A stretch of 64,000 nt of DNA, taken from contig FMBT01000292.1 of the NCBI GenBank assembly GCA_900095095.1, positions 868,001 through 932,000 of the forward strand, read 5' to 3'. The translations under genes were made by a program, and so were the position numbers. Shown one piece after another: positions 9,704 through 60,608 of this stretch. The notes beneath the pieces were generated by a model, which worked only from the letters and a program-made list of their open reading frames with translations, made no database searches and had not been told where the DNA came from. Each line of letters opens with the position of its first letter. The first letter of the stretch is position 1. The stretch comes from Fragilariopsis cylindrus CCMP1102 (Eukaryota; Bacillariophyta; Bacillariophyceae; Bacillariales; Bacillariaceae).

Positions 9704-12700
9704 TTAATCAGTTTCGAAATAGCTTTCAAAATAGCTCAAAATATCAGGTGTGCTAACACTTTGCTTCAAATCAAATTGCGCACCACCCACACTGCACAGT
9801 TTTTGAATACGATTACGTCCAACACTGGGTGCCAGTTTTTCCAGGCTGGTACCTGGTTCATTTTTCGGTGCCAAGCACATAAGCTCAAATCGTAACGTAA
9901 GACGAATCCTGGCAAACCAATTTATACCATTCGTCTCCGTTTTCAGCGGAACCCATTCTTCTAGTTGTCCACCAGAACCTAAGCCATTCAATTTAATATC
10001 AGCTCCTCCCAGATAGCTGTCACTCATAAATTTCTTCTCATATACTGAAATTTGAAGGACAGATGGGGGTCCTTTGAACAGGGACTCACAATCACTGTCA
10101 TAGCATTTTCCTTCGATGTCTGTATTCTCTGGAAGTGGATATCTAAAGCGAACTAAGCTGCCCCATGATGCAGGTGCGTTAGGCCCACTCGTTTTAGATA
10201 ACTTAATTGGATCTGTGCTTACACTGTCTAATGTTCTGGCTTTGGAAGTCAAAGGGGCGCCGGATCGAGCCCGTTTTAATCGGAGAAGTGAGTAGACAGT
10301 TAAAGTCAACGACCCACCAGGAGAAGTAAGGTTCTTAAGATCAAGTAATTCCACTTGGATCAATGCCACATATCGCTGAGGAAGTTGAAGCCTGTTAAAA
10401 ATTAAATTTCGGTAAAGGTGCTCCCTAATCGAGTTGTCATAAACAGACGGTTCGGCGTTGACTCCGTCGCATAACAAAAGATCCCCTCCAGCAGAGCGTT
10501 CCCACGGAGCTTGAACGGTAGCAATGGACTTTGTGAGGGATATACCACCTTTTAAAGTCGTCCATAATTCCAAGAGATGAAGCCCTCCAAGTGACTTTAG
10601 TATATCTTCACACGAAGATGTAGCCCTGGTAAGACTGAACGCAAGGAGGTGTTCTCTTCCAAGAGAAGCGCCTTTAGTCTCGGCTTCACGATTCTCCAAT
10701 GGTTCCACTTCCCATGGGTCAACTAGTCGATAACGAATTCCGCTATCAATTGAGGCTTCGCCTTCAATTGGAGCATTCTCGTCGTCTTCTGATTTCTTCT
10801 TCTTCTTCTTGTAAGCTTTTGGAGCTAAGAGTCGAAGGTCAACAGCTTCGATGATACGGCTTTTTTCCATAAAGTTCAATCTGTCTACCGCATCTTCTTC
10901 ATCCGTTTCGACACCATTGTTCAAGAACCAGGCCACGGCCTCTTTTTTACTAAATAAGACTACCATAGCATTTTCACCTCCGTCTCCGAGACGTAATGTT
11001 CTAAATTCAACACCAGAATCTGGCTGTATCATTCGTCGTATAATAAGATCTCCGCCATCCAAAGTGTTTGATTTTTCGGATGTTGATATTTCAATGGCTG
11101 TTTCCGACTCTTCTAAAGAAATTGATTGAGGTGACTCAATTGAAGTGGTATAATTCGAGGAAGGAGCTAGGAAGCTGCTGACTTCAATTTCCATCATTCT
11201 GCACCAGATTAGAAGTGGTCTCATAATTCTAGAAGCAATGGCGTATTCTTGTTCCACTCCTATGTCAACAGAAACATCAGAAATGCTACCGATTGAATCG
11301 ACGTCATCAGTTGCATCATCCAACCATTCAGCACTGTCATATTCAGCTGCTGCAACAGCACTCAATTGCTTTCGCAACCCATGGAGTAATACGAGTTCGA
11401 AGAATAATCCAAATATTTCCCTCTTATCTTCATTGCTTTCTTTGTGATCTTCGATGTATTCTTCGTTCCATTCATTAACAAATTGACTGTCATTTGTATT
11501 ATTGGCCGGATCAGCCTGGAGCATACCCAATTTCCGAAGAAATGTTGAGTTGGGTGATGGCTTTGACCCTTCTTCCTTTATTATTCCCTCTGTTGGAGGA
11601 AGATCAAAACGCAAGTTGAAGGGAAGGGACGAAGATACTGCTTCTAAAAGGTCCATCAAGGTTCCAAATGGACCAAAAGATCCGCACCTGAACCCTGAAT
11701 CTGATAAGCGTACAATGGCATGCTGAACAACATCGTCTCGTTTGATTGGTCTAGATTCAGAGGGTGGCTGCGGTACTGGTGGAGGTTTTGGTCGTTCTTC
11801 CGTATTATTGCTTGATTCCACCGAGGCATTTGGTTTGACTCCTCTACTGTCCTGTGACGGAACTAAATTTGTTTTGAAACTAATCGTGAAAACACCGTGA
11901 TCTTGAGGGTGAGGTCGAATAATAAAAGACCCAGTTGGCCGTTCACGTAGTAGCTCTGTAGCACGTGCACGACGACAGTCAACAAGGAATTCCCAGCCTC
12001 CGCTACCAGTTCCGATCACATTTTTTTCTCTTCCTGCACCTCCTGATATTATCTTTAGGCTAGACCAAAGCTGCCTTCCAGCACCTTCATCAATTAAACA
12101 GTCGGGAGGTTGTTTCATCATTAATTCTTGCACTTTGAAATCACGATTCCAGCTTGCTACGAAGTAACCGATCCGAACTGAGCAAATTGCTTCGTTTAGT
12201 GCAAGCCCAGACAATGGCAGCGCTCCCCCTCGATGTATCCACAAGCATAGTTCAAGTTGCCAGCTCATGTGGGCCGCAAATTTCTTCGATGAAAGGGTTG
12301 ATAAATGTGCCGCGCAACGCCGACCATTAGCCACGTGACTATTGGAAAACGCATTTGAATAGCATCTCTCGACGAGAGATTGCGCTGCCATCCTCAAAAC
12401 ATCCTCTGCAAGCTCCACCTGCTTGATTGCAGCGAGCAGTAAAACCACATAAAGTGTCCTGTAGAACTGGTAAGGAGTATATAGAAGTTGAATGGCGCGT
12501 TCTACAACCACCTTGCATTCCAAAGCAGTAAGTTTGGATATATTTCCTATCACCTCGCGAACATCCTTGATTAGTACTTCGCCATCACAATGAAAGTGGA
12601 GAACCTGAGATGCGTCCGAAGTCATAAGAGGCTGTTCGCAGAAATCTCCTTTGTCAAATTCATCGCAGTAATAAGGAGCACAGAGCGTGGACAACTCTCT

Positions 12701-15700
12701 AATAAGCCTTCTGGCAGCAGCATCGCAAATAAGATCTTTTTGCCATTCAATCCACAGAGAAGGAGGTGATCGCAGCTCTTTGGTCTCGGGTAGAACTTCA
12801 TCGCTACCCTCGACAAATTTCTGTGAACGATTATTTGTTTCAGTGGATTTATCAGCGTTGGGGGTAGCTATTCCTTTCGAAGATGGGCTTGCGTCAAATG
12901 TATCGAATATGGAGGATTCCATTGCTCCAGATGACGTAGAATTTAGCTTCATTGGGCGCGGAGGATCGAACGAGTCGAAAATCGAAGAGACCATACCATT
13001 ACCAGCCGACGCTGCAATCCTTGGCTTTGGTGGGGGCGCATCAAAGGAGTCAAAAATGGACGATGTCATATCGCCCGAATTAGCAGTCGAAGCTGGCTTT
13101 GCTGCAATCTTTGGCTTTGGTGGGGGTGCATCGAAGGAATCAAAGATGGACGATGTCATATCACCCGAATTAGCCGTCGAGGCTGGCCTTGCTGCAATCT
13201 TTGGCTTTGGTGGGGGTGCATCGAAGGAATCAAAAATGGACGATGACATATCACCCGAATTAGGCATCGGCGTCGAAGCTGGCTTTGGTTTCGCGGCAGG
13301 TGGAGCGTCAAAAGAATCAAATATTGAAGACGAAAGCTGATCAGATGGAGGAGTATGTTGTGGAGCCTTTCGCTGCTGCGGAACATCAAATGTATCAAAT
13401 ATAGATGAAGTAGGAACATTCTGTTGTTTTTCTATCCTTGGTATGGCAGTAATGCACGTATTTTGATATCCTTCTTTTTCGAATTTAGCTTCATCCATAT
13501 TTTTCATAAGTGACCGGAGAGCGGACACTTCTATTCCAGCACTGACAAGTGAGCGGCATAAAGCAAAAGTTGATGCCAATCTTGTTCTTTCACTGGCCTT
13601 CATCATCTTCAATAGGACTGGACCTGAAACTAGATTGATGCAAGAATTCATCGTAAACACTGTAGAGTCTCGACTCTTTTTGGCCATCGCACTAGGTCTA
13701 TGTAGTTGAGGAAAAGTAAGATCTTCAACAAAGTATGGCAGATCCTTCCCATTATAGTCTACCAGTCCCGATAGCCAATTGAAGGCTTCGTCAAAACGTC
13801 CCAACCATATAAGCTGGACAGCAGACAAGCACGTATCATTATGTGCACTTGGGAGGCCTCTATCGAGAATGAGACTTTTAGCTACTGGTCCAAGACGGGG
13901 TTTCCAATCTTTAAAAGTCTCCTTATCCTTGGTGACTTCCAATATGGGGGGTCCAGATCCAGCAAAGCCTCCGCCTCCTCCCAAGGTACCGCCGAACCCT
14001 AGACCAGCGCTTTGGCCTGATGACGAGAGCGAGTTTCCAAGTAAACGCGCAACAAGAAAAGCCAGATCGATATCCTCCATTTTTGTGGCAATGGTTTCAA
14101 CCGCAGACTTTAGTATGGGAGGATCTGCGAGAAGGAAAAAAGCAGCAGCAGAATCATATTGATTCTTTCGAAGCAAACTAAATGCGTTCTTTTCAGCAGC
14201 TACACGACCACGTTCACTCGAAAAGTCGTAATTTATAAGAAACTTGTGAAACTTTCTACCACTCATGCTCATATCAGCCGCAGCCAAGTTCTTTAGCGTT
14301 CTCATCTTCCTTGCTATTATGAAAAAGATGGCCGATTTTAATATATCTTTGGATTTTCTGTACAGGTTTTGCCCAATCTCTTCGGATAATTGGCGTAGTT
14401 TTTCATCGGATCTGAGCCAAAAAGGAATCCTTAAGTTTCGTACTGTCAACCAGTCAAGCTTTTCTCCTGGCTGACGAATTGTGTCAACTAATAATTGTTG
14501 GTAATCACTTGATAAGGCGGCTAAGCAGCCTGCAGAAGCATTTTGTGGATGCAACTTCGGCCTGTCAGCCTCTAACTTCATTTGGCGTTTAGCATGATGA
14601 AAAGACTGCATAGACATGGAAGATTTGGAAGTGGATTTTTCTTCGTCATTTTCAATATTCTTATATTCTCTGTGTATGGCATATATTGTCAACGTCAATT
14701 GACCTTGAGGATCGAGCTTTCCATACTTTGGGGGCTCCATAGCAACACTCAATATAGCTTGAAGTACCCGTAGTTCGTTTGCATGCATTGTTGATAGGAT
14801 TTCAGGGATATTTACAGGATCCTCCTCGTTGATGCCATTTCTCGGTATATGCTTATCCAAAACATCTTGAAGTCTTTTCAATCTTCTTTTATCCTTGTCT
14901 ACGACATCCGAAGTTCTCGAACCGCCAATTGTCATGCTAGCCATGAGACTCGCAGCACTTTCTTTTCCATCATTGTTTGTATCTATCGACGCATCTACAA
15001 CTTCACTTCCCCATAAAGCTAAAGGAGCAACAAGGAGGGGAACATTTGAAGAGAGGTTATCCTCCGGTGACCCATCGATCTTGTCAGACAACCACAGTAG
15101 AACGCGCTTTATATCACCTGTCAACGCTAATTTTGCGCCTTTCTCTTCCATACAAAGAAGGGTGAACATCGTCTCGGGATGCCAGTCTGACAATAAATAA
15201 TGTTTCTCATCGTACGAAGAAAGAGTTGCGCGTATCAATCTCATTAAATGGGGGTACGTATCCATTGGCCTATCCCCGGAAATTCTCCCAACACACTGAT
15301 TAAAATTGGATTGCCTACTTGATGTAGAAATAGCTGGGTAAGGCAGTCTTATAATTGGAGTCCATTTCTTGCTACCTCCTCGTCGCTGATAGACAATGGC
15401 TTCAGACGTCAGAAAGGCTACGATTGTAGGGAATGCCTCAAGGTAACCAGTTTTAAGAAAGCAAAAGTCGACAAGCTCCGAGTCACTTTCGGAAGGATCC
15501 ACTACAATCGTCGATTCGTAGTAGTCCCTATTAAAATAATCATCATTGATGGTACCGTTACCTCGAAGGTCTCTTGGGGACGGATCTGGTCTAGCGTGCC
15601 ATACTTTAATGGAACATCGGGGATTTTCGCTTTTTTGGATCGCAGCTAGAATGCTGGGACATGAAGAATGCAACCGAAAATCGCGAAAGTCGTTACCAAC

Positions 15701-18700
15701 ATCAATTATGTGATACTGCTGGTGTGACATTTCGAAAGCTGAACCATCTCCCGTATTTGATGATTTTTTATTTGAAAAGTTCAGATACAGCAACCTAAGA
15801 CCGCCTAGACTATCCGAAACTACGAAACACCATCTCTCTCCAATGCTTTCTACACATGCTATCGTTCGAATCACATATCTGTCATTATTACCTATACCAT
15901 TTCTCGTTTGTAGCATATCGATTACACCCAAGTCAAATTTTTTTGCCTTATCCAGACCCGTTCTAGTCGGAAGCTCTACCCGCCGAACTTGAATCTTACT
16001 CCCAGATGCATGAAGCATCAGAGCAGCAGCCCGTATCCGTCGTTGAGATGATGTTGTTGTCTCGTTATTCCACGGGAGAATAATAAATCTATCGGCAAAG
16101 TCATCCCCATCGACTGATGGTACAGCTTTCCTGATAACAGCAATCACCCGCCCAAATTCCTGTTGCGCTTCGGCTGAATTGCTGAAGAGCATAGCAGCTA
16201 AACTTGCTGTATCCTGTGACCCCCCACGTTGCGAATTTATATCTGAACTCTTTTCATTATTTTGACTAGCATTAGAACGATCAGATGATCGCGCACTGAA
16301 CGATTCTTGGACAACCGCACTATTTTTACGACTACGGTCGAATGGAACAGGTCTAAACGTCATTTTAAGCGGCTCTCCAGGTCCAAGCTCGGTTCCGACG
16401 TGACGAACCGTGGCTATGATATCATCGAAAGTTGTATTCTCTAGGTTCACACCATTAACGCTTAGCAGCTCATCACCTAGCTTAATCATTCCAGTTTTCT
16501 CCGCAGGAAGTATGCCATCGTTAAGCGGATTTTTCTTGAAAGAACCAGCAATTGCAGGAAGACCGTCCATTGGAGACTCGAGCCGTAGGCCAAGACCAAA
16601 ATCGGGATGAGGCGTCACTAAAACATCATAGTTTTGACCTGTCATTGTGGCTTCTTCGTCATCACTTCCGTCTTCGGCTATGGCAGTATCGTAGAGCTCA
16701 GTTCCACTGGCGATTGAAGACTGAGGATTAGCCGAATCAAAATTCGGCATAGTGGGTTCGAGAGCGAACAATGGAGGCGGAATTTCATACACAAGGATGG
16801 TTTTCGACTTCGTAACCGCAACGAGCAAAGGAGGGCCACCGAAACTATCATCAGGCCACCACTTAATCGCGATAACAGTATCCTCATTGGCGGAAGTTGT
16901 GCCTTTCGGAAGTTTAAGTGGTGGTAATGCCAATGGAACAGGAACAAGACTCATATCGAAAAGAAGATCAGGAGAGTCTGGTATAACTATCTCATTATTT
17001 TTTCGTAGAAAAACTGTGTTCTCTTCCCCCCATTGCGGCGAGTACGTCGACATACAACCCTCTTTGCGCCAAAACAATGATATAGATCTACCCTCAGATT
17101 CTATCTCTGCACAAAGACGACTTGATTCGTAATCCATTGACGCTACGATCAATGTCGGTTTCTTTCGTTCTTCTCGTAGGGAGCATACTGCCGATAGTGC
17201 CAAAACATTACGTATAGGACTTCCTAGCTCCATGGCCCCAAATTCGTCTTCACCCCAAAGTGGAAAGTCCATCAAGACAAGATGACCATTTTTGGGATGA
17301 GAAGCCACAAGTCTCAATTCAGTAGGTGGGCTGTGCGTGCCTCCCGAGTAGTATTCGCCAAATGTGCCTTGGCTTTTGCTTGGCGGAGGGACGGATGACA
17401 AACCTAAAAATTTCATTGCAGATCCACTGAAGCCATTATCCGACTCGTTACCAGACGGCTCAGATAACCATGGATTCCAAGCAGGCCAGACCCCCTGTAT
17501 TGAAAGGCCCATATCATCAGCATTTAGAACACTCTCTGCAATAATAGAGCCAGCTGGCAAAATAGCAGCAATACTTTCGAAGTGCGCAGGCTGAGAATCG
17601 TCGTTACCTCGTTTCATATAACTCAATCGGGATAATCGAAGAGCAGGATATGCTTCTCGAAAAGTAATTTCTGCAATCCATGCACCAGCATCGCTGGTTG
17701 GAGATCCAGTTCCAGATGATCTGAATGTTCCTGCTGGTTGTAAACCGGAACTAATTGAACCCGTTGCGCCCGATAAATCAGAAGATATACTATTCGGACG
17801 ACTTTTTCCGGCACGAAGTGCTCGACTAGACGTAGATTTTGTTTGCGATTCCAGATCTCCTAGACTAAAGGCTGAAGATCCACGGATCCAGTCTGCTCGA
17901 GTATTTGGTGGTGTAGCCCACAGCATTAATTGGCGCCATGAATTCTGGTTGAAAATTCGAGCTGACGAATCTTCTTCACAATAGGTTAGCAGCAAGTCAT
18001 TTCCATCCATTTCTTCAGGATTGGCAGATGGCGTGACATGTCCCAAACCGCGAAATGACATACGAGTTACGGGTGTGGTGTGTTTCAGATATGGTCCCGA
18101 CTTAAAAACTATTCCAGTCGATGCTACTGAGGCACCTAGGCTACTACTACCGTCATCCTTGTCGTGTAAGAAGGTCATGGCACCGAAATTGTCGTCGTCG
18201 TCAGGCTGGTCAATAACTGCAACTACCGCTTGTCCGTCTCCCGATATTTTCGCATTGACTACTTTCGATGAAAGCATAGTCGTCCACAATAGTGTTGCAG
18301 CGTTATTTGTTTTGATAAAACTATAGATTTCGTTATTATTTCTATCCGTGTCGTCGTCTACTTTAGGTATAGGTGGGAAAGCTTCAAAGACAGCCAATTG
18401 TTGCCGATGAGCAACAAGGATTTTGTAATCATAAGACGAGGAAATATCTATGAGATCTCCAGCTTTACTGTACCGTCGATCACAAAATTTTACCGTTTCT
18501 TCGCCGGAATGATGATAAAAGACTTCGGCAGCATTAATAGTAATGCAATCTATCCATCGGAACCTTCCAAAGACTGATTTTGGCTTTTGTGTTTGTTTCT
18601 CTTCAAAATTGGAGGGATCGGTTTGTACGGGGATGTAGGTTTGAATGATACCATCCTCGTGTGCAACTATAATCATGCCAGATGAAGAATTTGAGGTAAT

Positions 18701-19444
18701 AGACACCACAGGGGCTTTCGAAGCAAGATTAAGTTTCTGAAAAAGAAAATTTGTCCTGGAGCAAACTCCTGCTATAGCTCGATGGGAAATAACATAAGAA
18801 AATACAACCTCCATACCACGGTAGATCACAGTAGTAAACATGGACGAATCAAGAGCGATGTTGTTCTCCTCCTCGTTGACCTCACTGCAACTACTAGAGG
18901 AAGCAATTCTCTTCGCAGCCGCCGCCGCTGCTGCTGCTGACTTGATTGCTTTCACGGCGAGAAACGACCGTCTTCGCGATAATTTGTTCAAATTGGCCAA
19001 TGCGATGGTTTTTTTTGGTGTATTTACGGATTCTGTAGCTGATGAATTGTTGTTTTGTGTACTTTTGCTCAAAGTATCTTCCACCTGCCCAAGTACTTCT
19101 GGTGGCATGTGAAAACCACTACTGGTAATCTGAGGCAATCCACCTACATCACGATCAATATTTTGAAGATTGGGTGCATTACCGCTTATGGGAGGAGTAC
19201 GTATTCCATAGTTCATATCTTTGTTACTGCTATTTGTTGTGTTGCGACTTGAATCATCTCCTTCGTCGTCCGTAGAAGCAGCAGCAGCAGCAGTGGCAGG
19301 TGGTACGTTGGAACTTCTGGACCGGCTAGTTGTGTTCGACCTGCTACCGACCCGATGAAAATTATCTGCCGCACCAGAGACTCGCAATCTCCTTTCAGTG
19401 GAGGAGGAAGAAGAAGGAGCAGAAGAATTATGATTCTTTTTCAT
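9704..19444 (-). CDS. Giant Rav1/DmX-like protein with PDZ, SH2-like and C2 domains
   Basis: One uninterrupted 3246-residue ORF. In order: a low-complexity N-terminus; a WD/propeller-like region (about 200-500); a PDZ-like segment (about 945-1035, with GLGLRL and KLGDELLSVNGV); a Rav1 C-terminal-type helical region (about 1500-1800, with LRIPFWLRSDEKLRQL, YRKSKDILKSAIFFIIARK and NAFSLLRKNQYDSAAAFFLL); seven SSIFDSFD repeats (about 2013-2185); an SH2-like fold (about 2486-2613, with GSFIIRPH and VQHAIVRL); and a C2 domain (about 3024-3186). Rav1/rabconnectin-3 proteins assemble the V-ATPase on endosomes and vacuoles in the RAVE complex, so a role in V-ATPase assembly or membrane trafficking is inferred. 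The added PDZ, SH2-like and C2 parts are not standard for that family. A coding stretch this long with no intron is unusual for this window. Confidence 0.8.
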   Translation of the reverse strand: MKKNHNSSAPSSSSSTERRLRVSGAADNFHRVGSRSNTTSRSRSSNVPPATAAAAASTDDEGDDSSRNTTNSSNKDMNYGIRTPPISGNAPNLQNIDRDVGGLPQITSSGFHMPPEVLGQVEDTLSKSTQNNNSSATESVNTPKKTIALANLNKLSRRRSFLAVKAIKSAAAAAAAAKRIASSSSCSEVNEEENNIALDSSMFTTVIYRGMEVVFSYVISHRAIAGVCSRTNFLFQKLNLASKAPVVSITSNSSSGMIIVAHEDGIIQTYIPVQTDPSNFEEKQTQKPKSVFGRFRWIDCITINAAEVFYHHSGEETVKFCDRRYSKAGDLIDISSSYDYKILVAHRQQLAVFEAFPPIPKVDDDTDRNNNEIYSFIKTNNAATLLWTTMLSSKVVNAKISGDGQAVVAVIDQPDDDDNFGAMTFLHDKDDGSSSLGASVASTGIVFKSGPYLKHTTPVTRMSFRGLGHVTPSANPEEMDGNDLLLTYCEEDSSARIFNQNSWRQLMLWATPPNTRADWIRGSSAFSLGDLESQTKSTSSRALRAGKSRPNSISSDLSGATGSISSGLQPAGTFRSSGTGSPTSDAGAWIAEITFREAYPALRLSRLSYMKRGNDDSQPAHFESIAAILPAGSIIAESVLNADDMGLSIQGVWPAWNPWLSEPSGNESDNGFSGSAMKFLGLSSVPPPSKSQGTFGEYYSGGTHSPPTELRLVASHPKNGHLVLMDFPLWGEDEFGAMELGSPIRNVLALSAVCSLREERKKPTLIVASMDYESSRLCAEIESEGRSISLFWRKEGCMSTYSPQWGEENTVFLRKNNEIVIPDSPDLLFDMSLVPVPLALPPLKLPKGTTSANEDTVIAIKWWPDDSFGGPPLLVAVTKSKTILVYEIPPPLFALEPTMPNFDSANPQSSIASGTELYDTAIAEDGSDDEEATMTGQNYDVLVTPHPDFGLGLRLESPMDGLPAIAGSFKKNPLNDGILPAEKTGMIKLGDELLSVNGVNLENTTFDDIIATVRHVGTELGPGEPLKMTFRPVPFDRSRKNSAVVQESFSARSSDRSNASQNNEKSSDINSQRGGSQDTASLAAMLFSNSAEAQQEFGRVIAVIRKAVPSVDGDDFADRFIILPWNNETTTSSQRRIRAAALMLHASGSKIQVRRVELPTRTGLDKAKKFDLGVIDMLQTRNGIGNNDRYVIRTIACVESIGERWCFVVSDSLGGLRLLYLNFSNKKSSNTGDGSAFEMSHQQYHIIDVGNDFRDFRLHSSCPSILAAIQKSENPRCSIKVWHARPDPSPRDLRGNGTINDDYFNRDYYESTIVVDPSESDSELVDFCFLKTGYLEAFPTIVAFLTSEAIVYQRRGGSKKWTPIIRLPYPAISTSSRQSNFNQCVGRISGDRPMDTYPHLMRLIRATLSSYDEKHYLLSDWHPETMFTLLCMEEKGAKLALTGDIKRVLLWLSDKIDGSPEDNLSSNVPLLVAPLALWGSEVVDASIDTNNDGKESAASLMASMTIGGSRTSDVVDKDKRRLKRLQDVLDKHIPRNGINEEDPVNIPEILSTMHANELRVLQAILSVAMEPPKYGKLDPQGQLTLTIYAIHREYKNIENDEEKSTSKSSMSMQSFHHAKRQMKLEADRPKLHPQNASAGCLAALSSDYQQLLVDTIRQPGEKLDWLTVRNLRIPFWLRSDEKLRQLSEEIGQNLYRKSKDILKSAIFFIIARKMRTLKNLAAADMSMSGRKFHKFLINYDFSSERGRVAAEKNAFSLLRKNQYDSAAAFFLLADPPILKSAVETIATKMEDIDLAFLVARLLGNSLSSSGQSAGLGFGGTLGGGGGFAGSGPPILEVTKDKETFKDWKPRLGPVAKSLILDRGLPSAHNDTCLSAVQLIWLGRFDEAFNWLSGLVDYNGKDLPYFVEDLTFPQLHRPSAMAKKSRDSTVFTMNSCINLVSGPVLLKMMKASERTRLASTFALCRSLVSAGIEVSALRSLMKNMDEAKFEKEGYQNTCITAIPRIEKQQNVPTSSIFDTFDVPQQRKAPQHTPPSDQLSSSIFDSFDAPPAAKPKPASTPMPNSGDMSSSIFDSFDAPPPKPKIAARPASTANSGDMTSSIFDSFDAPPPKPKIAAKPASTANSGDMTSSIFDSFDAPPPKPRIAASAGNGMVSSIFDSFDPPRPMKLNSTSSGAMESSIFDTFDASPSSKGIATPNADKSTETNNRSQKFVEGSDEVLPETKELRSPPSLWIEWQKDLICDAAARRLIRELSTLCAPYYCDEFDKGDFCEQPLMTSDASQVLHFHCDGEVLIKDVREVIGNISKLTALECKVVVERAIQLLYTPYQFYRTLYVVLLLAAIKQVELAEDVLRMAAQSLVERCYSNAFSNSHVANGRRCAAHLSTLSSKKFAAHMSWQLELCLWIHRGGALPLSGLALNEAICSVRIGYFVASWNRDFKVQELMMKQPPDCLIDEGAGRQLWSSLKIISGGAGREKNVIGTGSGGWEFLVDCRRARATELLRERPTGSFIIRPHPQDHGVFTISFKTNLVPSQDSRGVKPNASVESSNNTEERPKPPPVPQPPSESRPIKRDDVVQHAIVRLSDSGFRCGSFGPFGTLMDLLEAVSSSLPFNLRFDLPPTEGIIKEEGSKPSPNSTFLRKLGMLQADPANNTNDSQFVNEWNEEYIEDHKESNEDKREIFGLFFELVLLHGLRKQLSAVAAAEYDSAEWLDDATDDVDSIGSISDVSVDIGVEQEYAIASRIMRPLLIWCRMMEIEVSSFLAPSSNYTTSIESPQSISLEESETAIEISTSEKSNTLDGGDLIIRRMIQPDSGVEFRTLRLGDGGENAMVVLFSKKEAVAWFLNNGVETDEEDAVDRLNFMEKSRIIEAVDLRLLAPKAYKKKKKKSEDDENAPIEGEASIDSGIRYRLVDPWEVEPLENREAETKGASLGREHLLAFSLTRATSSCEDILKSLGGLHLLELWTTLKGGISLTKSIATVQAPWERSAGGDLLLCDGVNAEPSVYDNSIREHLYRNLIFNRLQLPQRYVALIQVELLDLKNLTSPGGSLTLTVYSLLRLKRARSGAPLTSKARTLDSVSTDPIKLSKTSGPNAPASWGSLVRFRYPLPENTDIEGKCYDSDCESLFKGPPSVLQISVYEKKFMSDSYLGGADIKLNGLGSGGQLEEWVPLKTETNGINWFARIRLTLRFELMCLAPKNEPGTSLEKLAPSVGRNRIQKLCSVGGAQFDLKQSVSTPDILSYFESYFETD
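12890..13412 (-). repeat. Coding repeats of an SSIFDSFD motif
   Basis: Seven copies of [ST]SIFD[ST]FD spaced 24-30 residues apart by Pro/Ala/Lys linkers. The two central copies, each 90 bp, are nearly identical at DNA level (around 13030-13210), indicating recent unequal exchange. DSF/FDxF-like peptides resemble short linear motifs that bind trafficking adaptors; that function is inference. Confidence 0.85.
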
Positions 19445-50913: not shown

Positions 50914-51786
50914 ATGTATAGGGTAGGGTCGCCGAACAAAACTGAAATTTGCAAAACTGAAAATTTGATTTTTTTACTAGTACAAACTCAGAAAGTGTTG
51001 CCTGCAAAAATTGAAACTTTGATTTCTTTACTAGTACAAACTCAGAAAGTGTTGCCTGCAAAAATTGAAACTTTGATTTCTTTACTAGTACAAACTCAGA
51101 ATGTGTTGCCTGCAAAAATTGAAACTTTGATTTCTTTACTAGTACAAACTCAGAATGTGTTGCCTGCAAAAATTGAAACTTTGATTTCTTTACTAGTACA
51201 AACTCAGAATGTGTTGCCTGGGTGGGCAGTGTTTCATGCAAGAAAAACAAAAATGAAGGAAAGGTTCAGACGTAAAGATGATGAAGACAAATATGCAGAA
51301 TTGACTAAAGAAGTTGAATTCCTTTCATCAATGAGAATGTATAGGAGTGAAGCAGCTTTAAGTGACCACTATTTGGAAAATTGTTATCATGATACAATCA
51401 GAACATCAGATAGAGGACACTTGACTCTAATAAGGGAGGAGTATTTTGAGTTTGGGTACATGTTGATGGATAATATATCATCCTCTGTGACTGAAGATAT
51501 ATTACTGTCAAAGATGGATGTTTTAAGATTAGTGAAGGAAGCACTACTCAGTAACGACCCATTGTGGGAGATGTTTCTAGTGTCATCTAAGAAGGTTGAG
51601 TGTGTTACTGAGGGTGACAGGAAGAAACTGTTTGAGTTGGTAGTGGAGAAAGCAATACATGCTTTGTTTGAAGATGTATTGAAAAGATTGCGTGCGAAGC
51701 ATACATCCCGTGGAACCAAGCAGAATATAACTGGTCAGGGTTTCAGAGATGAAATCAAAGGGATGACCAGAAGGAGAAAAAAGTAA
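50914..51786 (+). CDS. Unrecognised transposon-borne protein with 18-residue repeats
   Basis: The open frame runs from 50791 to a stop at 51786; the first ATG is at 50914, giving 290 residues. Residues about 20-100 are four and a half tandem copies of an 18-residue unit (LLVQTQKVLPAKIETLIS) encoded by 54-bp DNA repeats. The remaining 190 residues are non-repetitive, charged and helical: ARKTKMKERFRRKDDEDKYA, then YFEFGYMLMDNISSSVTED, and a basic C-terminus ending MTRRRKK. No DDE catalytic pattern, zinc finger or BED domain was recognised. The stretch after the repeats looks properly coding (balanced composition, no stop for 190 codons), so the protein is probably made. A spliced upstream exon is possible because the codons before the ATG also read open. 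Confidence 0.6.
   Translation: MYRVGSPNKTEICKTENLIFLLVQTQKVLPAKIETLISLLVQTQKVLPAKIETLISLLVQTQNVLPAKIETLISLLVQTQNVLPAKIETLISLLVQTQNVLPGWAVFHARKTKMKERFRRKDDEDKYAELTKEVEFLSSMRMYRSEAALSDHYLENCYHDTIRTSDRGHLTLIREEYFEFGYMLMDNISSSVTEDILLSKMDVLRLVKEALLSNDPLWEMFLVSSKKVECVTEGDRKKLFELVVEKAIHALFEDVLKRLRAKHTSRGTKQNITGQGFRDEIKGMTRRRKK
50976..51220. repeat. 54-bp tandem repeat, about 4.5 copies
   Basis: Units start at 50976, 51030, 51084, 51138 and 51192, each beginning ACTAGTACAAACTCAGAA. Copies are identical apart from an A/T change (AAAGTG versus AATGTG) that divides the first two from the last three. A diverged half-copy precedes the array. Being divisible by three, unit number can change without shifting the reading frame. 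Confidence 0.95.
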
Positions 51787-52651: not shown

Positions 52652-54121
52652 TTACACTGATAGCGTTCCCTTGCTACTTGCAGTAGTACCCGCTCGACGT
52701 TCGTCGACCATAGAACACACACGAAGGGCGCGTCCGAATGCTGTAGCGGTACAAAGGACTACGTCTGCCACTGATGATACCTGCTCACACTCGGCATTCG
52801 ATTTTTCTACGATATGAACTGTCATATGGCTATTCATCACTAGAGAGTCCAAACAGTGTTCAAGCATTTCACATGACAAGGGATTACTTTCACCACCTTC
52901 AACGACATATTCTTGTCGACCAAGTGTTTCATGAAGATTGTGTCCAAAGTAGGGACGATTAGATAAGTCCATCGTGACTTCTACCTTCGCAGCTGATACA
53001 TCAGACCCTGCCGTTTCTCTTGTAGCTTCTGATACCCACATTCTGTTCAAACCAGCTTTATTTCCCAATGCTTGGTTAAGGCATTGACCGATCGCGATAC
53101 TCACGTCTTCAGCCGTATGATGGTCATCGACCCACAAGTCACCTTTGCAATTAATCTTCAGTGTCATACATGCTTCTTTTGCTAGTATAGTATAAAATGT
53201 ATTCAAAAAGGGAATACCAGTCTCGACAAGAGTATCTTTGCTACAACCATTCAGTAGAAGGTGCACCGATATTGAGGTTTCTCTTGTCGTTCGTTCAACT
53301 TTACCCTCTCGTTGGAGGGCCACACTGGCTAGATCATTAGGACTTCTTTGGTCCCACATGTCAGGTGGATCCAAATAGACTCGCAAGGCTCTAGAAAATG
53401 CCTTGAAGGAACTTTCAACTGTTATGTGACATTTTAAAAATTAAGTCCTCGGTAAGCAAAATATGATTTATATTCTATATCAAACAACGTAGACGACGCA
53501 GGAACATATATATGTATACATACCTATATGATGAGCGTTATCACCACGAATTTTATCCAAAGAAATTACAATACCAGCCGATGTCGCTAGAGCCTTCCAG
53601 AATGATTGGATTGCAAATATTTCCAAATTTCCGATTTTTGTTCTACCGACACCCCTTGGGTATATTCCAAAAGGAGCCAAACTGTACTTTGCTAGATCGT
53701 ATTTTTCATCCCTAATCATCTCATTATTATTTTCACCTGAAGAAATAAGACATTCCACCAATGCTTCATCAAGTGGACAACAGAATCGAGATTTGGACGG
53801 TGATGTTTTCGGCGCGGAAATCAATACCTTCCGTAATTGTTGACCCAATGCTTTCCCTACAGCTGCACAAAGTTGGACTTGATTCTCATTTGCAAAGCGA
53901 TTATGGTCTGCGTCAACATCAACTTTTGATTCGTTATTATTTTGTATCTCGAGCGCCGTACATAAGGATACTTCCAAACCGACGCCGACCTGTGCGTGTG
54001 AATTCCATTGATCAATCATATGATCGAGGTATCCAATTCCCGTAAGAATCGGAACAGCGACCTTCGCCTCGTTGACGCAAACAGCATTCTGAACATGAAA
54101 GGTAGCTGTCAATGATGACAT
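52652..54121 (-). CDS. Tandem double imidazoleglycerol-phosphate dehydratase
   Basis: Two exons, 54121-53524 and 53418-52652, join at HHI-V to give 454 residues, about twice a normal IGPD (near 200). IGPD converts imidazoleglycerol phosphate to imidazole-acetol phosphate in histidine synthesis, using Mn ions bound by HHxxE and HHTxED motifs. Domain 1 (about 1-215) has DHM (Asp33, His34), His42, CPLDEALVE and GDNAHHIVE (His197, His198, Glu201) but lacks HHTxED. Domain 2 (about 240-440) has DDHHTAED (His299, His300, Glu303) but reads FLNTFY instead of the DHM motif, has no DEA, and AECEQVSS instead of HHxxE. Together they hold one full set. No transit peptide is evident. The two-domain reading is seen directly; cooperation of the domains is inference. 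Confidence 0.85.
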
Positions 54122-56207: not shown

Positions 56208-58076
56208 TCAACTCTCAATACGCGTCGAAGGTGGCATTCTACGCTTTGATAATTTACTTGCGTTTTTTCCTTTTTTAATTGAAATTTTTGGCTCAGTAAA
56301 CGGTTCTTCATCAACTAAGTTTAAGTGCATCCACTGCGCTAATTTATGTTGACTTATCCCATGAAGAGACGCTAATGATCTGATTTCTTGCCAAATCGCT
56401 TCTGTATCAGGTTTCTTATCTCTATTGACAGACCTATTTCGGATTGCTGTAATCATTACATTTTTACTTGTGTGTTCTCCTCCTATAAATTCGAAAACTT
56501 TTACCTGGTAACCGGCATATTCTAGAAGCAAAGCTCTCAGGCTGTCAGTTACTTGTTCACTGATTCGATCGCGATATACACCGTGTTTAAGAATAGATGA
56601 TAACGGATGAGTCTGGCGTGTCGACGAAAAGTGAGCATTCAATTGGGGTCTAACTTGCTTGTGGCAACACGGCGCCACAACAATGACATCGGCTTTCTGA
56701 GCAATACCAGAATACAATGCGTCGTCTGTAGCTGTATCACATGCATGTAATGCGACAAGGATACTAAGTGAAGGATCATCATCATCATCATCATCATCAT
56801 TTTCTTCTTCTTGTCGCTTAGTAGTAGTAGTGGAAGCTTGCGTAACAAGATTTTCAATCGTTCCTTCTTCAAAATTCAACGTGTCAAAGTTACCACCCAA
56901 TCCCTTAGCAATGCCATTAATTTCATTAATTAGTTTAGGTCGTACATCAATACCTGTTGCAGTTATCGACTCGTACCGTTCATTTAAATAATGATGAAGA
57001 CTGAAAGTCAAATATGCTCGACCACATCCCATATCAACGAGATTTATTGTATGATGATTTTTCTGTTCTTCTCCTTGTAGCTCATCCACTATCTTGCCAA
57101 CAATTTCAACGAACTTTTGACACTGTCTCAACTTTCCCTGCATTTTTGGTTTCGGTTTTCCATTCTCATTTGTGACTCCCAACGCCTTAAAAAATGCTGC
57201 CTGATTCGAAAGCGGAACCATCTTGATACGGTCATGAGATTGTGGTATAGTTGAAGTAGAGGCTTGTATAGAAGTAGCGTCGTCGTCAGCAATTGCTTTT
57301 TTCTCTCGCAGTGATGGTGACTTGGTGTCTAATCTTAAGTCAAAGATAGTATCAGTCGTCGTCAATTGAGCACCCTGAATAGGTTGCGCTTTTAAATTTA
57401 TGATACCCCATTCCGAAGCTAATGCTGGATCGAGAATTAGATCGTAAATTGTTTTCGCAACATCTTCAATCGGTACATTTTTACAAATATCTGTCGCTCC
57501 GTGGTATTTCAGTGTAATTTGAAAAAGTAGTATCGAATCGTCATCGATGTTACTTGTGTCATCAAGATTATTTTGTCGATTCGTCTTTTTATTCCTGGAC
57601 TTGGAAGAAGATGCAGCTCTAATGATTCGTCCAGATACTTGTCGGATCGATCCTCGTAACAAGTCATCGTCGATATTACTTTTTTTCTTCTTTTTCTTGA
57701 CTCCTCGAAGAACGAGTGACACAAAATTACTTTTTTGGATGGATTCCTCGACCGAAGAAATAAATGTTTGAACGAGTTCCGATTTCGATTTTGAATTAGG
57801 ATCCTGTGTATGATGATCTACGTCGTCTTTTTCTTTCACTTGCCGCCGCGTCGAGCCAACCTCTCTCCATCTTGATGTTATCGTCGATGACCGTGTATAT
57901 ACCGGTAGTTGATGGCTATGACTTGAGTATACATCTTTTCTAATACTAAAATGATGTGGTACTCTTCCGCTGCCGCAACTATTTCCCGGCAAGAATGCAA
58001 CGACACAATAATCATAGTACAAGTATACTATAATCGCATGAACGGCCAAAAACTCGAGACGTAGCATCCTGATCAA
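56208..58076 (-). CDS. METTL25-like methyltransferase with plastid-type leader
   Basis: A single-exon 622-residue protein. The C-terminal half is a Rossmann methyltransferase of the Methyltransf_32/METTL25 kind: VDMGCGRAYLTFSLHHYL is the S-adenosylmethionine motif I, followed by ATGIDVRPKLI, VALHACDTATDDAL and VVAPCCHKQVRPQ. The PCCHK block is characteristic of this group; human METTL25B methylates ribosomal protein RPL8, but the substrate here is unknown. The N-terminus (LEFLAVHAIIVYLYYDYCVV) is hydrophobic and followed by AFLPGNSC, like the signal-plus-ASAFAP presequence of diatom plastid proteins. A linker of Lys and Asp runs lies between leader and domain. An Asp run of eight (near residue 435) interrupts the domain. 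Confidence 0.8.
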   Translation of the reverse strand: MIRMLRLEFLAVHAIIVYLYYDYCVVAFLPGNSCGSGRVPHHFSIRKDVYSSHSHQLPVYTRSSTITSRWREVGSTRRQVKEKDDVDHHTQDPNSKSKSELVQTFISSVEESIQKSNFVSLVLRGVKKKKKKSNIDDDLLRGSIRQVSGRIIRAASSSKSRNKKTNRQNNLDDTSNIDDDSILLFQITLKYHGATDICKNVPIEDVAKTIYDLILDPALASEWGIINLKAQPIQGAQLTTTDTIFDLRLDTKSPSLREKKAIADDDATSIQASTSTIPQSHDRIKMVPLSNQAAFFKALGVTNENGKPKPKMQGKLRQCQKFVEIVGKIVDELQGEEQKNHHTINLVDMGCGRAYLTFSLHHYLNERYESITATGIDVRPKLINEINGIAKGLGGNFDTLNFEEGTIENLVTQASTTTTKRQEEENDDDDDDDDPSLSILVALHACDTATDDALYSGIAQKADVIVVAPCCHKQVRPQLNAHFSSTRQTHPLSSILKHGVYRDRISEQVTDSLRALLLEYAGYQVKVFEFIGGEHTSKNVMITAIRNRSVNRDKKPDTEAIWQEIRSLASLHGISQHKLAQWMHLNLVDEEPFTEPKISIKKGKNASKLSKRRMPPSTRIES

Positions 58077-58649: not shown

Positions 58650-60608
58650 TCAAATATATTTAGCAGTCTTAGGTTTCTCGTTCATTTCAATTTTCTTTTC
58701 TCTTCGCTGTACAAGTCGTAGGAATTGAGATTCTATATTAATTTGTTCCATTGTCTGCACATCAACACTGTATCGTCCTCCAGAAAGCATAACAATTCGA
58801 TTATTTAATTGTTGGTCCTCCTTCTCTTTCGCTGTTGTCGTTGTCGTCGAATCCAAATGGAGTGCTTGAAATGCATCTTCAAGTTTTTGACTACTTTCAA
58901 CATCATATGGAATGTAACCAACATCACCATCTGCATCGAACCACCATGTTGGAGAAACAACCTTCTCGAGGACTTGTGATGCAACATGTTCCCCACGGTT
59001 CAATTTTAGAACCTCATCAGTAGTAAGTAAATTATCGTGTTTTTTTTCCATTTTACAAAATGTACATGAGTCGTTCGAGCCCTGTATGATTCGTTTTGGA
59101 ATACAATTTGGACACCACCAATCACCTTTACGAAAAGAGGATCCAGAAGAATCTCTTTGAGGCTGCTGTTGATTTGATTGATGATGGTTATTGTTTGTAC
59201 TATTGTCATCTTCTTTTCCTTCTTCTTCTTCAGCACTCGATAGTCGAAAATCGATATCATCTCCTCCTAAATTTTGGATAATATTATTATTATTATTACT
59301 ATTAGAGCATGGTAATATCGATTCAGATTTGGATTTAGATTCAGATTCTTTCATTATCAAATTGTGACGTACACCACCACGTATTCGTACCCCAACTCCA
59401 GAATTATCTACAACGTTACATCCATTCATTATTAAGGATGATGTTTTCTGCTGCTGAATGATAATATTGTATTTATCATTTGTCTTATTATTATTATTAC
59501 TATTGTTTTTACTGTCTGAAGTACTACTACTACTAGGTGTTGGTGGTGTTGTTATTATCGAGGCTGTAGTTTTAACAGCTGATGATACCTCTATAGCAGC
59601 CATATCTTCTCGGCATGTACCAGATACGGTACAACCATGTAAGTCAACAGATGCATTTGCATATGCGTATAGTCCTCGTACAGCAGAATTTAGAATAGAT
59701 GTATTAATTAATTTGATTTGACATTCACCACGAGCACAAACGCCATGTACACCTGATTCCATTATAGTACATTCATTTGTTAATAATTTTGCATTACCAA
59801 AACATACCAATGCTGATCGTAATGGTGAACGTAAATAACACTGATTCAAATCAATACTAGATTTCTGTACAGCCCAACAACAAAATCCAGCATGACTAAT
59901 AATCGAACAATTTGTAATTTTTGTTGATGATTTGTATCGTAAATTAACAGCGGCACCAACTTGACTTCCAACATCATCTACATCCTCATGAACCAATTCT
60001 ATATCGTGTAATGTCAATTTACTATGATTATTAAGAAGAAATAGATTATGAATTTTCCCTGAAATCTGGATTCTTTTTTTTCTTATTGAGGATGACGACG
60101 ACGACGATGGCGACGATGACGACGAGGGTTGTTTCTCCTCCTGCTTCGATGATTCTTCTTCTATTATTCCTCTACCTCCTCGAATAGTAAGATGTTCACG
60201 TTTTCTTAATAGAATAGTATCAGGTAGATCTTTTATATCTTGTAATAGAAATAATGTTCGATGTGTTTCTACTGCAAATTGACACGCCTCTTCAAAAGTT
60301 GTTCCCTGTTTTAATTGTTGCTTTTGCTGTTGCTGTGATTGTAATTGTGATATTATTATTCCTTCATTATCATCATTATAGTTATCATTCCTATCGAATT
60401 CTTGTATGACATCGTTATCACAACATAGTTTTGGAGGAAAAAATATAGGATTATCATCATTATTATCGCCTACTACTAACATCGCTTGTGAAGATAACGA
60501 CGGCGATGACGATCTCACGTTAATATGATTATGATTATTATTGTGGTTAGAATTCTTGTTCGCTGTCATGGTAAATAGTACATGTATGGCACTTAAAAGC
60601 AAGTGCAT
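58650..60608 (-). CDS. Right-handed beta-helix protein with RanBP2-type zinc finger
   Basis: A single ORF of 652 residues; the Met at residue 14 (MTANKNSN) may be the true start. After an Asn/Gln-rich N-terminus, residues about 165-340 form parallel beta-helix rungs, each with an aliphatic-turn pattern: SGKIHNLFLLNNHSKLTLHD, TKITNCSIISHAGFCCWAVQ, IDLNQCYLRSPLRSALVCF, ECTIMESGVHGVCARGE and LINTSILNSAVRGLYAYANA. This is the F-box/SHCBP1-type NosD/CASH fold. A zinc finger with WWCPNC and CTFCKM (about 500-525) matches the RanBP2 type, which binds ubiquitin or RNA. Homopolymer Asn, Ser and Gln runs connect the parts. The role is unknown; ubiquitin-related scaffolding is a guess. Confidence 0.72.
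   Translation of the reverse strand: MHLLLSAIHVLFTMTANKNSNHNNNHNHINVRSSSPSLSSQAMLVVGDNNDDNPIFFPPKLCCDNDVIQEFDRNDNYNDDNEGIIISQLQSQQQQKQQLKQGTTFEEACQFAVETHRTLFLLQDIKDLPDTILLRKREHLTIRGGRGIIEEESSKQEEKQPSSSSSPSSSSSSSIRKKRIQISGKIHNLFLLNNHSKLTLHDIELVHEDVDDVGSQVGAAVNLRYKSSTKITNCSIISHAGFCCWAVQKSSIDLNQCYLRSPLRSALVCFGNAKLLTNECTIMESGVHGVCARGECQIKLINTSILNSAVRGLYAYANASVDLHGCTVSGTCREDMAAIEVSSAVKTTASIITTPPTPSSSSTSDSKNNSNNNNKTNDKYNIIIQQQKTSSLIMNGCNVVDNSGVGVRIRGGVRHNLIMKESESKSKSESILPCSNSNNNNNIIQNLGGDDIDFRLSSAEEEEGKEDDNSTNNNHHQSNQQQPQRDSSGSSFRKGDWWCPNCIPKRIIQGSNDSCTFCKMEKKHDNLLTTDEVLKLNRGEHVASQVLEKVVSPTWWFDADGDVGYIPYDVESSQKLEDAFQALHLDSTTTTTAKEKEDQQLNNRIVMLSGGRYSVDVQTMEQINIESQFLRLVQRREKKIEMNEKPKTAKYI

Follow-up and report, generated by a model that had tools for sequence, protein, structure and literature searches.

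A tandem IGPD gene of Fragilariopsis cylindrus whose two domains retain complementary parts of one active site

The window, a stretch of 64,000 nucleotides from the diatom Fragilariopsis cylindrus CCMP1102, contains a spliced open reading frame that runs on the minus strand from position 54121 to 52652 and encodes a protein of 454 residues (followed by a stop codon) and 49.6 kDa with an intact frame. The initial annotation placed a double IGPD here, and its coordinates, 52652..54121, are correct. The description as a tandem pair also holds, as the Pfam IGPD family (PF00475) matches two stretches of the spliced protein, with 180.3 bits for the whole protein against a cut-off of 27. When each exon is searched alone, domain 2 scores 109.4 bits and domain 1 scores 48.5 bits, each above the cut-off by itself. 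No other Pfam family was found in the protein at E values up to 0.001, and it contains no histidinol-phosphate phosphatase domain. Exon 2 is a single open frame that spans the last helix of domain 1, the linker, and domain 2. The fusion of the two domains is therefore independent of the splice call, and the idea that the exons belong to separate genes fails, because exon 2 alone joins the last helix of domain 1 to domain 2.

Predicted structures show the IGPD fold in both halves. The two exons were folded separately, which left the domain 1 model without its last helix. The linker between the domains comprises about residues 216–234 and has low pLDDT in the predicted structure. Domain 1 carries three insertions with no counterpart in the aligned IGPDs (residues 52–65, 96–104, and 128–145), and model confidence is partly low in the first and third of them. 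The residues named for both domains were checked and agree with the DNA. No 5′ exon with the usual RxTxET motif was found in frame within 900 bases upstream, where three frames were read. An out-of-frame KRVTE just ahead of the ATG was considered as the missing motif; its spacing is wrong, and it was taken as a chance occurrence. The parts of the gene, its active-site residues, and other features of the window are collected in Table 1.

Table 1. Features of the tandem IGPD gene and of other parts of the window. Subunit roles are those named in the passages of the structural papers that describe the site, carried over to Arabidopsis numbering by alignment.
Feature	Window positions	Strand	Arabidopsis equivalent and role	Remarks
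Exon 1	53524..54121	minus		Residues 1–199 and base 1 of codon 200; domain 1 as far as HHI of HHIVE
Intron	53419..53523	minus		105 nt with GT..AG ends; three stops in frame; the C615 copy is 2 nt shorter
Exon 2	52652..53418	minus		From the second base of codon 200 through residue 454 to the stop codon; domain 1 last helix, linker, all of domain 2
Domain 1 H34/Q38/H42	53996..54022	minus	H47/Q51/H55, role A	Kept; T/I/E in domain 2
Domain 1 D118	53768..53770	minus	D108, role A	Kept; S in domain 2
Domain 1 H197/H198/E201/K205	53402..53533	minus	H169/H170/E173/K177, role A	Kept; split by the intron; lost in domain 2
Domain 2 E246	53279..53281	minus	E21, role A	Misfit; by alignment, secure in domain 2 only
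Domain 2 H299/H300/E303	53108..53122	minus	H73/H74/E77, role A′	Kept; N/R/N in domain 1
Domain 2 R325	53042..53044	minus	R99, role C	Kept; S in domain 1
Domain 2 R354	52955..52957	minus	R121, role C	Kept; A in domain 1
Domain 2 H387	52856..52858	minus	H145, role A′	Kept; S in domain 1
Domain 2 S447/K449	52670..52678	minus	C-loop S199/K201, role C	Kept; linker without C-loop in domain 1
Methyltransf_32 frame	56208–58076	minus		622 aa; domain match of 124 bits
WWE frame	58650–60608	minus		652 aa; C-terminal WWE domain of 32.4 bits; weak beta-helix match below the cut-off
Tandem repeat	50953–51220			Five 54-bp copies with 98% matches; each strand has an open frame through them; no Pfam match in the plus-strand frame
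Long open frame	9704–19444	minus		3246 aa

A PF00475 search of the 67.9-Mb assembly (818 contigs) returned four matches, namely the two domains of this gene and their counterparts on contig C615. This 26-kb contig is 99.55% identical to the locus (contig C324) across a 7.8-kb alignment, and the encoded protein is identical at 454/454 residues. There are no coding differences between the two contigs, and the flank and the intron differ. Among the 104 light-harvesting matches in the assembly, equal-scoring pairs lie on separate contigs. These pairs suggest that other stretches are doubled as well, so C615 looks like an alternate haplotype copy. One light-harvesting match, on contig C66, closely resembles FCPI-7 of 6ly5 and Lhcr11 of 6l4u, structures from the diatom Chaetoceros and its two hits at E 1e-60. 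Another, on the contig of the window, fits chains named for several systems, and a third had no hit at 1e-50; together these matches point to a diatom as the likely source. The initial annotation had called for a check for a second, normal IGPD gene; the search of the 818 contigs found no single-domain IGPD and nothing beyond the redundant C615 copy. Searches with other his families were positive in 4/4 cases, with matches to HisG, HisI, and HisD and two matches to HisA/F, so the IGPD step is presumably needed. The HisG and HisI frames have no obvious targeting presequence by eye, and the HisD frame has a hydrophobic stretch before its first Met that could be a presequence. The frame that holds the HisI match (contig C78, locus L011) has 524 aa; its N-terminal part is long, and by eye it seems to include a HisE part, an arrangement that recalls yeast HIS4.

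In yeast, IGPD is encoded by the HIS3 marker gene. Its active sites adjoin the two-fold axes of the 24-mer and lie between subunits A and A′, with C as a third neighbor (PMC6029752). In the description of the Acanthamoeba structure 6FWH, the ligands of Mn1 are H67A′, H40A, H162A, and E166A, and those of Mn2 are H66A′, E70A′, H138A′, and H163A (Rice et al., PMC6029752). Further site residues in this description are K170A, H48A, and D101A, together with R92C, R114C, S191C, and K193C. The passages on the Arabidopsis enzyme add Q51A and E21A to the site (PMC4509728). According to Del Duca et al., both HHxxE motifs are present in all 535 sequences of their set (PMC7284861). The metal-free IGPD of some species is described as a trimer, and the IGPD of Medicago is reported to stay whole in EDTA (PMC7284861, PMC10978614). 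In the present analysis, the subunit letters A, A′, and C were moved from Acanthamoeba to Arabidopsis numbering by alignment. As far as these published descriptions name the residues, role A comprises E21, H47, Q51, H55, D108, H169, H170, E173, and K177; role A′ comprises H73, H74, E77, and H145; and role C comprises R99, R121, S199, and K201.

Domain 1 keeps LDHM (H34), PLDEA (D118), and NAHHIVE (H197, H198, and E201), and it reads HNRFANE at the position of HHTxED. Domain 2 keeps DDHHTAED (H299, H300, and E303); its LDHM has become LNTF, and PLDEA and the second HHxxE are gone. The initial annotation had assigned DHM, CPLDEA, and GDNAHHIVE to domain 1 and DDHHTAED to domain 2, which is borne out by the sequence and the alignment, and had counted one metal-binding set per protein, which agrees with the presence of all eight ligands, four in each domain. 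The partition also covers H145, R99, R121, S199, K201, K177, Q51, and H55, which had been missed. By the published roles as described above, domain 1 keeps H47, Q51, H55, D108, H169, H170, E173, and K177 of role A and, in the main alignments, 0/8 residues of roles A′ and C. Domain 2 keeps 8/8 residues of roles A′ and C and 1/9 of role A, which is E21. The role-A score of domain 1 is 8/9 when E21 is counted as lost and 9/9 if E18 is accepted as E21. An unrecognized HHTxED in domain 1 did not come to light, as the motif is whole in neither alignment and the main ones give N, R, and N at H73, H74, and E77. A gapped profile alignment of low certainty puts the single His of HNRFANE at H74 and an Asn at the Glu of HHTxED, and a domain 1 His at H74 in that alignment would blur the partition.

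With E21 counted against the partition, a one-sided Fisher test gave 3.7e-4 for the 17 residues taken as independent, 0.014 for the 8 metal ligands, and 0.048 for the 9 motif blocks. The counts were entered by hand, and E21 was scored as kept in domain 2 only. Residues within one motif are lost together, so the block p value of 0.048 is the fairest, and it is borderline. Almost all motif blocks are present in exactly one of the two copies, a regularity that the block p value does not include. In these alignments, the retained residues fit very well a sorting by published subunit role, beyond there being one set in total. The partition indicates that, of two pseudo-symmetric sites, one is kept and the other is erased.

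Glu21 is the misfit in this partition. In the Arabidopsis description, it belongs to chain A along with E173, Q51, H55, and K177 (Bisson et al., PMC4509728), and the same source states that the E21Q enzyme was crystallized with substrate and had no activity. In domain 2, Glu21 sits in RTTRETSISV. In domain 1, the strand at this point is degenerate, and the position falls on H9 by one alignment, on E18 by two MAFFT alignments (with a long deletion), on about Q11 by a structural alignment that shows only a range, and on M1 when counted by hand from the Cryptococcus loop. This stretch is the least confident part of the predicted domain 1 model, with block pLDDT of 39 and 52. By these alignments, the metal and phosphate ligands are complete, and the acid-base Glu is secure in domain 2 only.

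Contigs were scanned for relatives with two motif patterns, and the best 80 of 591 were kept; these are bacterial or archaeal by title. Because the scan used two motif patterns, the set is biased to ordinary IGPDs. Both HHxxE motifs occur in 80/80 of these best 80 of 591 loci, and each of the 80 has one IGPD match within 2.8–4.7 kb. For the comparison table, 28 of the 80 loci were picked for diversity, and 15/17 active-site positions are invariant in 28/28 rows. Q51 is Q in 24/28, and position 145 in these prokaryotic rows is Glu in 25/28 and His in 3/28. An earlier table of 67 of the 80 loci, from which a motif filter had dropped 13, gave 64/67 for Q51 and 65/67 for position 145. Viral contigs scanned with the whole protein and with the alignment contained no encoded relative. 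A tree was built from 34 rows, comprising the 28 loci, four solved eukaryotic IGPDs, and the two domains. The branches of the two domains are 10 and 7.7, against a median end branch of 0.41. Domain 1 stands beside a cyanobacterial row with weak support (47/41), and domain 2 shares a fork with two prokaryotic rows and with the IGPDs of the fungi and the amoeba, also with weak support (83/62). The tree was set aside as evidence for the origin of the halves because of the huge branches and weak placements. Such very long branches would also be expected from decay or from relaxed constraint on half a site.

The double IGPD is probably the sole IGPD of the alga and an obligately composite enzyme with one site per chain. 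It would have arisen by tandem duplication of an IGPD followed by fusion. Domain 1 would have become specialized for role A, giving half of the metal ligands, the substrate-side Lys and His, and E173. Domain 2 would have become specialized for roles A′ and C, giving the closing C-loop, the two Arg that bind phosphate, and the metal ligands that domain 1 lacks. Since the sites adjoin the two-fold axes of the particle, one domain can take the place of A and the other that of A′, and the halves are predicted to meet in this way. Each interface would then hold one site complete in metal and phosphate ligands, while its two-fold mate would have no ligands from either side. The composite site would bind two Mn and catalyze dehydration, and each particle would contain twelve chains. 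The initial annotation had proposed that duties are split within a covalent pair that forms half the number of sites. This proposal fits very well with a partition that follows subunit role but is only partly supported, as Glu21 has no confident place in domain 1.

In a particle that retains the cube-like form, the eight corner trimers could alternate, with four built from domain 1 and four from domain 2. Eight cube-corner trimers are two-colorable, so such a particle would be tetrahedral and would have twelve sites, each chain accounting for one. The alternating-trimer model requires C to be the three-fold mate of A′; C as a mate of A would break the symmetric model but not the composite site. 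The Cryptococcus IGPD structure paper is said to describe two kinds of conserved patch per trimer, which would fit the alternating-trimer model. The conversion of a homo-24-mer with 24 sites into a tetrahedral particle of twelve chains, with 12 live sites (one per cube edge), 12 erased partner sites, and a change of symmetry from 432 to 23, is possible and is put forward tentatively.

It is rather unlikely that the composite site forms and binds Mn, and perhaps IGP or the product, but is non-catalytic without Glu21 of the A half, in which case the protein would serve as a sensor or catalyze a different reaction. The Arabidopsis E21Q enzyme, crystallized with substrate yet inactive by the published account (PMC4509728), is a precedent for such a site, and the structural range places about Q11 at Glu21 in the domain 1 model. 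However, this region is the least confident part of the model, MAFFT gives E18 there, and the assembly, which has HisG, HisI, HisA/F, and HisD matches, yielded no IGPD gene but this one. The same assembly is divided into 818 contigs, so that a normal IGPD gene might be missing from it and the double gene might be a decaying or repurposed paralogue, with which the very long branches of both halves are consistent. This is regarded as improbable, because the gene has 454 open codons, consensus splicing, and an identical coding sequence in two contigs, the other his family searches matched in 4/4 cases, and losses sorted by subunit role are not predicted by random decay. The partition by role makes plain decay unlikely as the cause of the losses, and catalytic activity of the composite enzyme is predicted.

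A hetero-oligomer of two chains, cleaved or made separately, instead of a covalent pair appears very improbable, because one frame of exon 2 covers the last helix of domain 1, the linker, and domain 2; the low pLDDT of the linker (about residues 216–234) is in keeping with two chains, and the two ORFs that a review gives for the IGPD step in P. tricornutum (PMC3901274) might each encode one half or might be different gene models. An artefact, with two genes joined by misassembly or by a wrong gene model, is hardly credible: the arrangement is identical on C324 and C615, and the 2-nt intron difference between these contigs would break the frame if the intron were translated.

If the double IGPD is composite, it would be a natural case of a symmetric homo-oligomer turned into an obligate hetero-assembly. 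The composite reading predicts one site and one Mn pair per 49.6-kDa chain, and a change in either half should destroy function. As a metalloenzyme, IGPD is highly symmetric, and it is a herbicide target; the double IGPD tests whether Glu21 is truly indispensable.

Diatom amino-acid pathways have been reviewed, reportedly by Bromke. The passage of this review on the IGPD step gives two ORFs for P. tricornutum, and one gene per enzyme is given for T. pseudonana (PMC3901274). In the open-access literature searched, no paper on a tandem IGPD was found by title or abstract start. Compared with eukaryotic IGPD/HIS3/HISN5 (PF00475; Acanthamoeba 6FWH, Arabidopsis 4MU0, yeast 6EZM, and Cryptococcus 1RHY), the fold is alike in both halves, and the pooled halves have all eight metal ligands and the phosphate contacts. 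The eukaryotic IGPDs described are single-domain homo-24-mers, and both HHxxE motifs occur in the 535 sequences of Del Duca et al. and in the 80 loci compared here, whereas the double IGPD has one HHxxE per domain. By profile and predicted fold, the protein is a clear member of the IGPD family, and the rule of both HHxxE motifs per domain is broken in each domain. The bifunctional HisNB likewise contains an IGPD in a fusion, but its partner is a histidinol-phosphate phosphatase and not a second IGPD. The herpesvirus single-chain dUTPase is a duplicated and fused subunit with one composite site formed from complementary surviving motifs. The double IGPD can be likened to it, although dUTPase has an unrelated fold and reaction and a trimeric ancestor. 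In the ancient gene elongation of the IGPD family, a half-domain was likewise duplicated in tandem and fused; according to its description each half gave one HHxxE and the result was one domain (PMC7284861), whereas the double IGPD consists of two whole domains with complementary losses.
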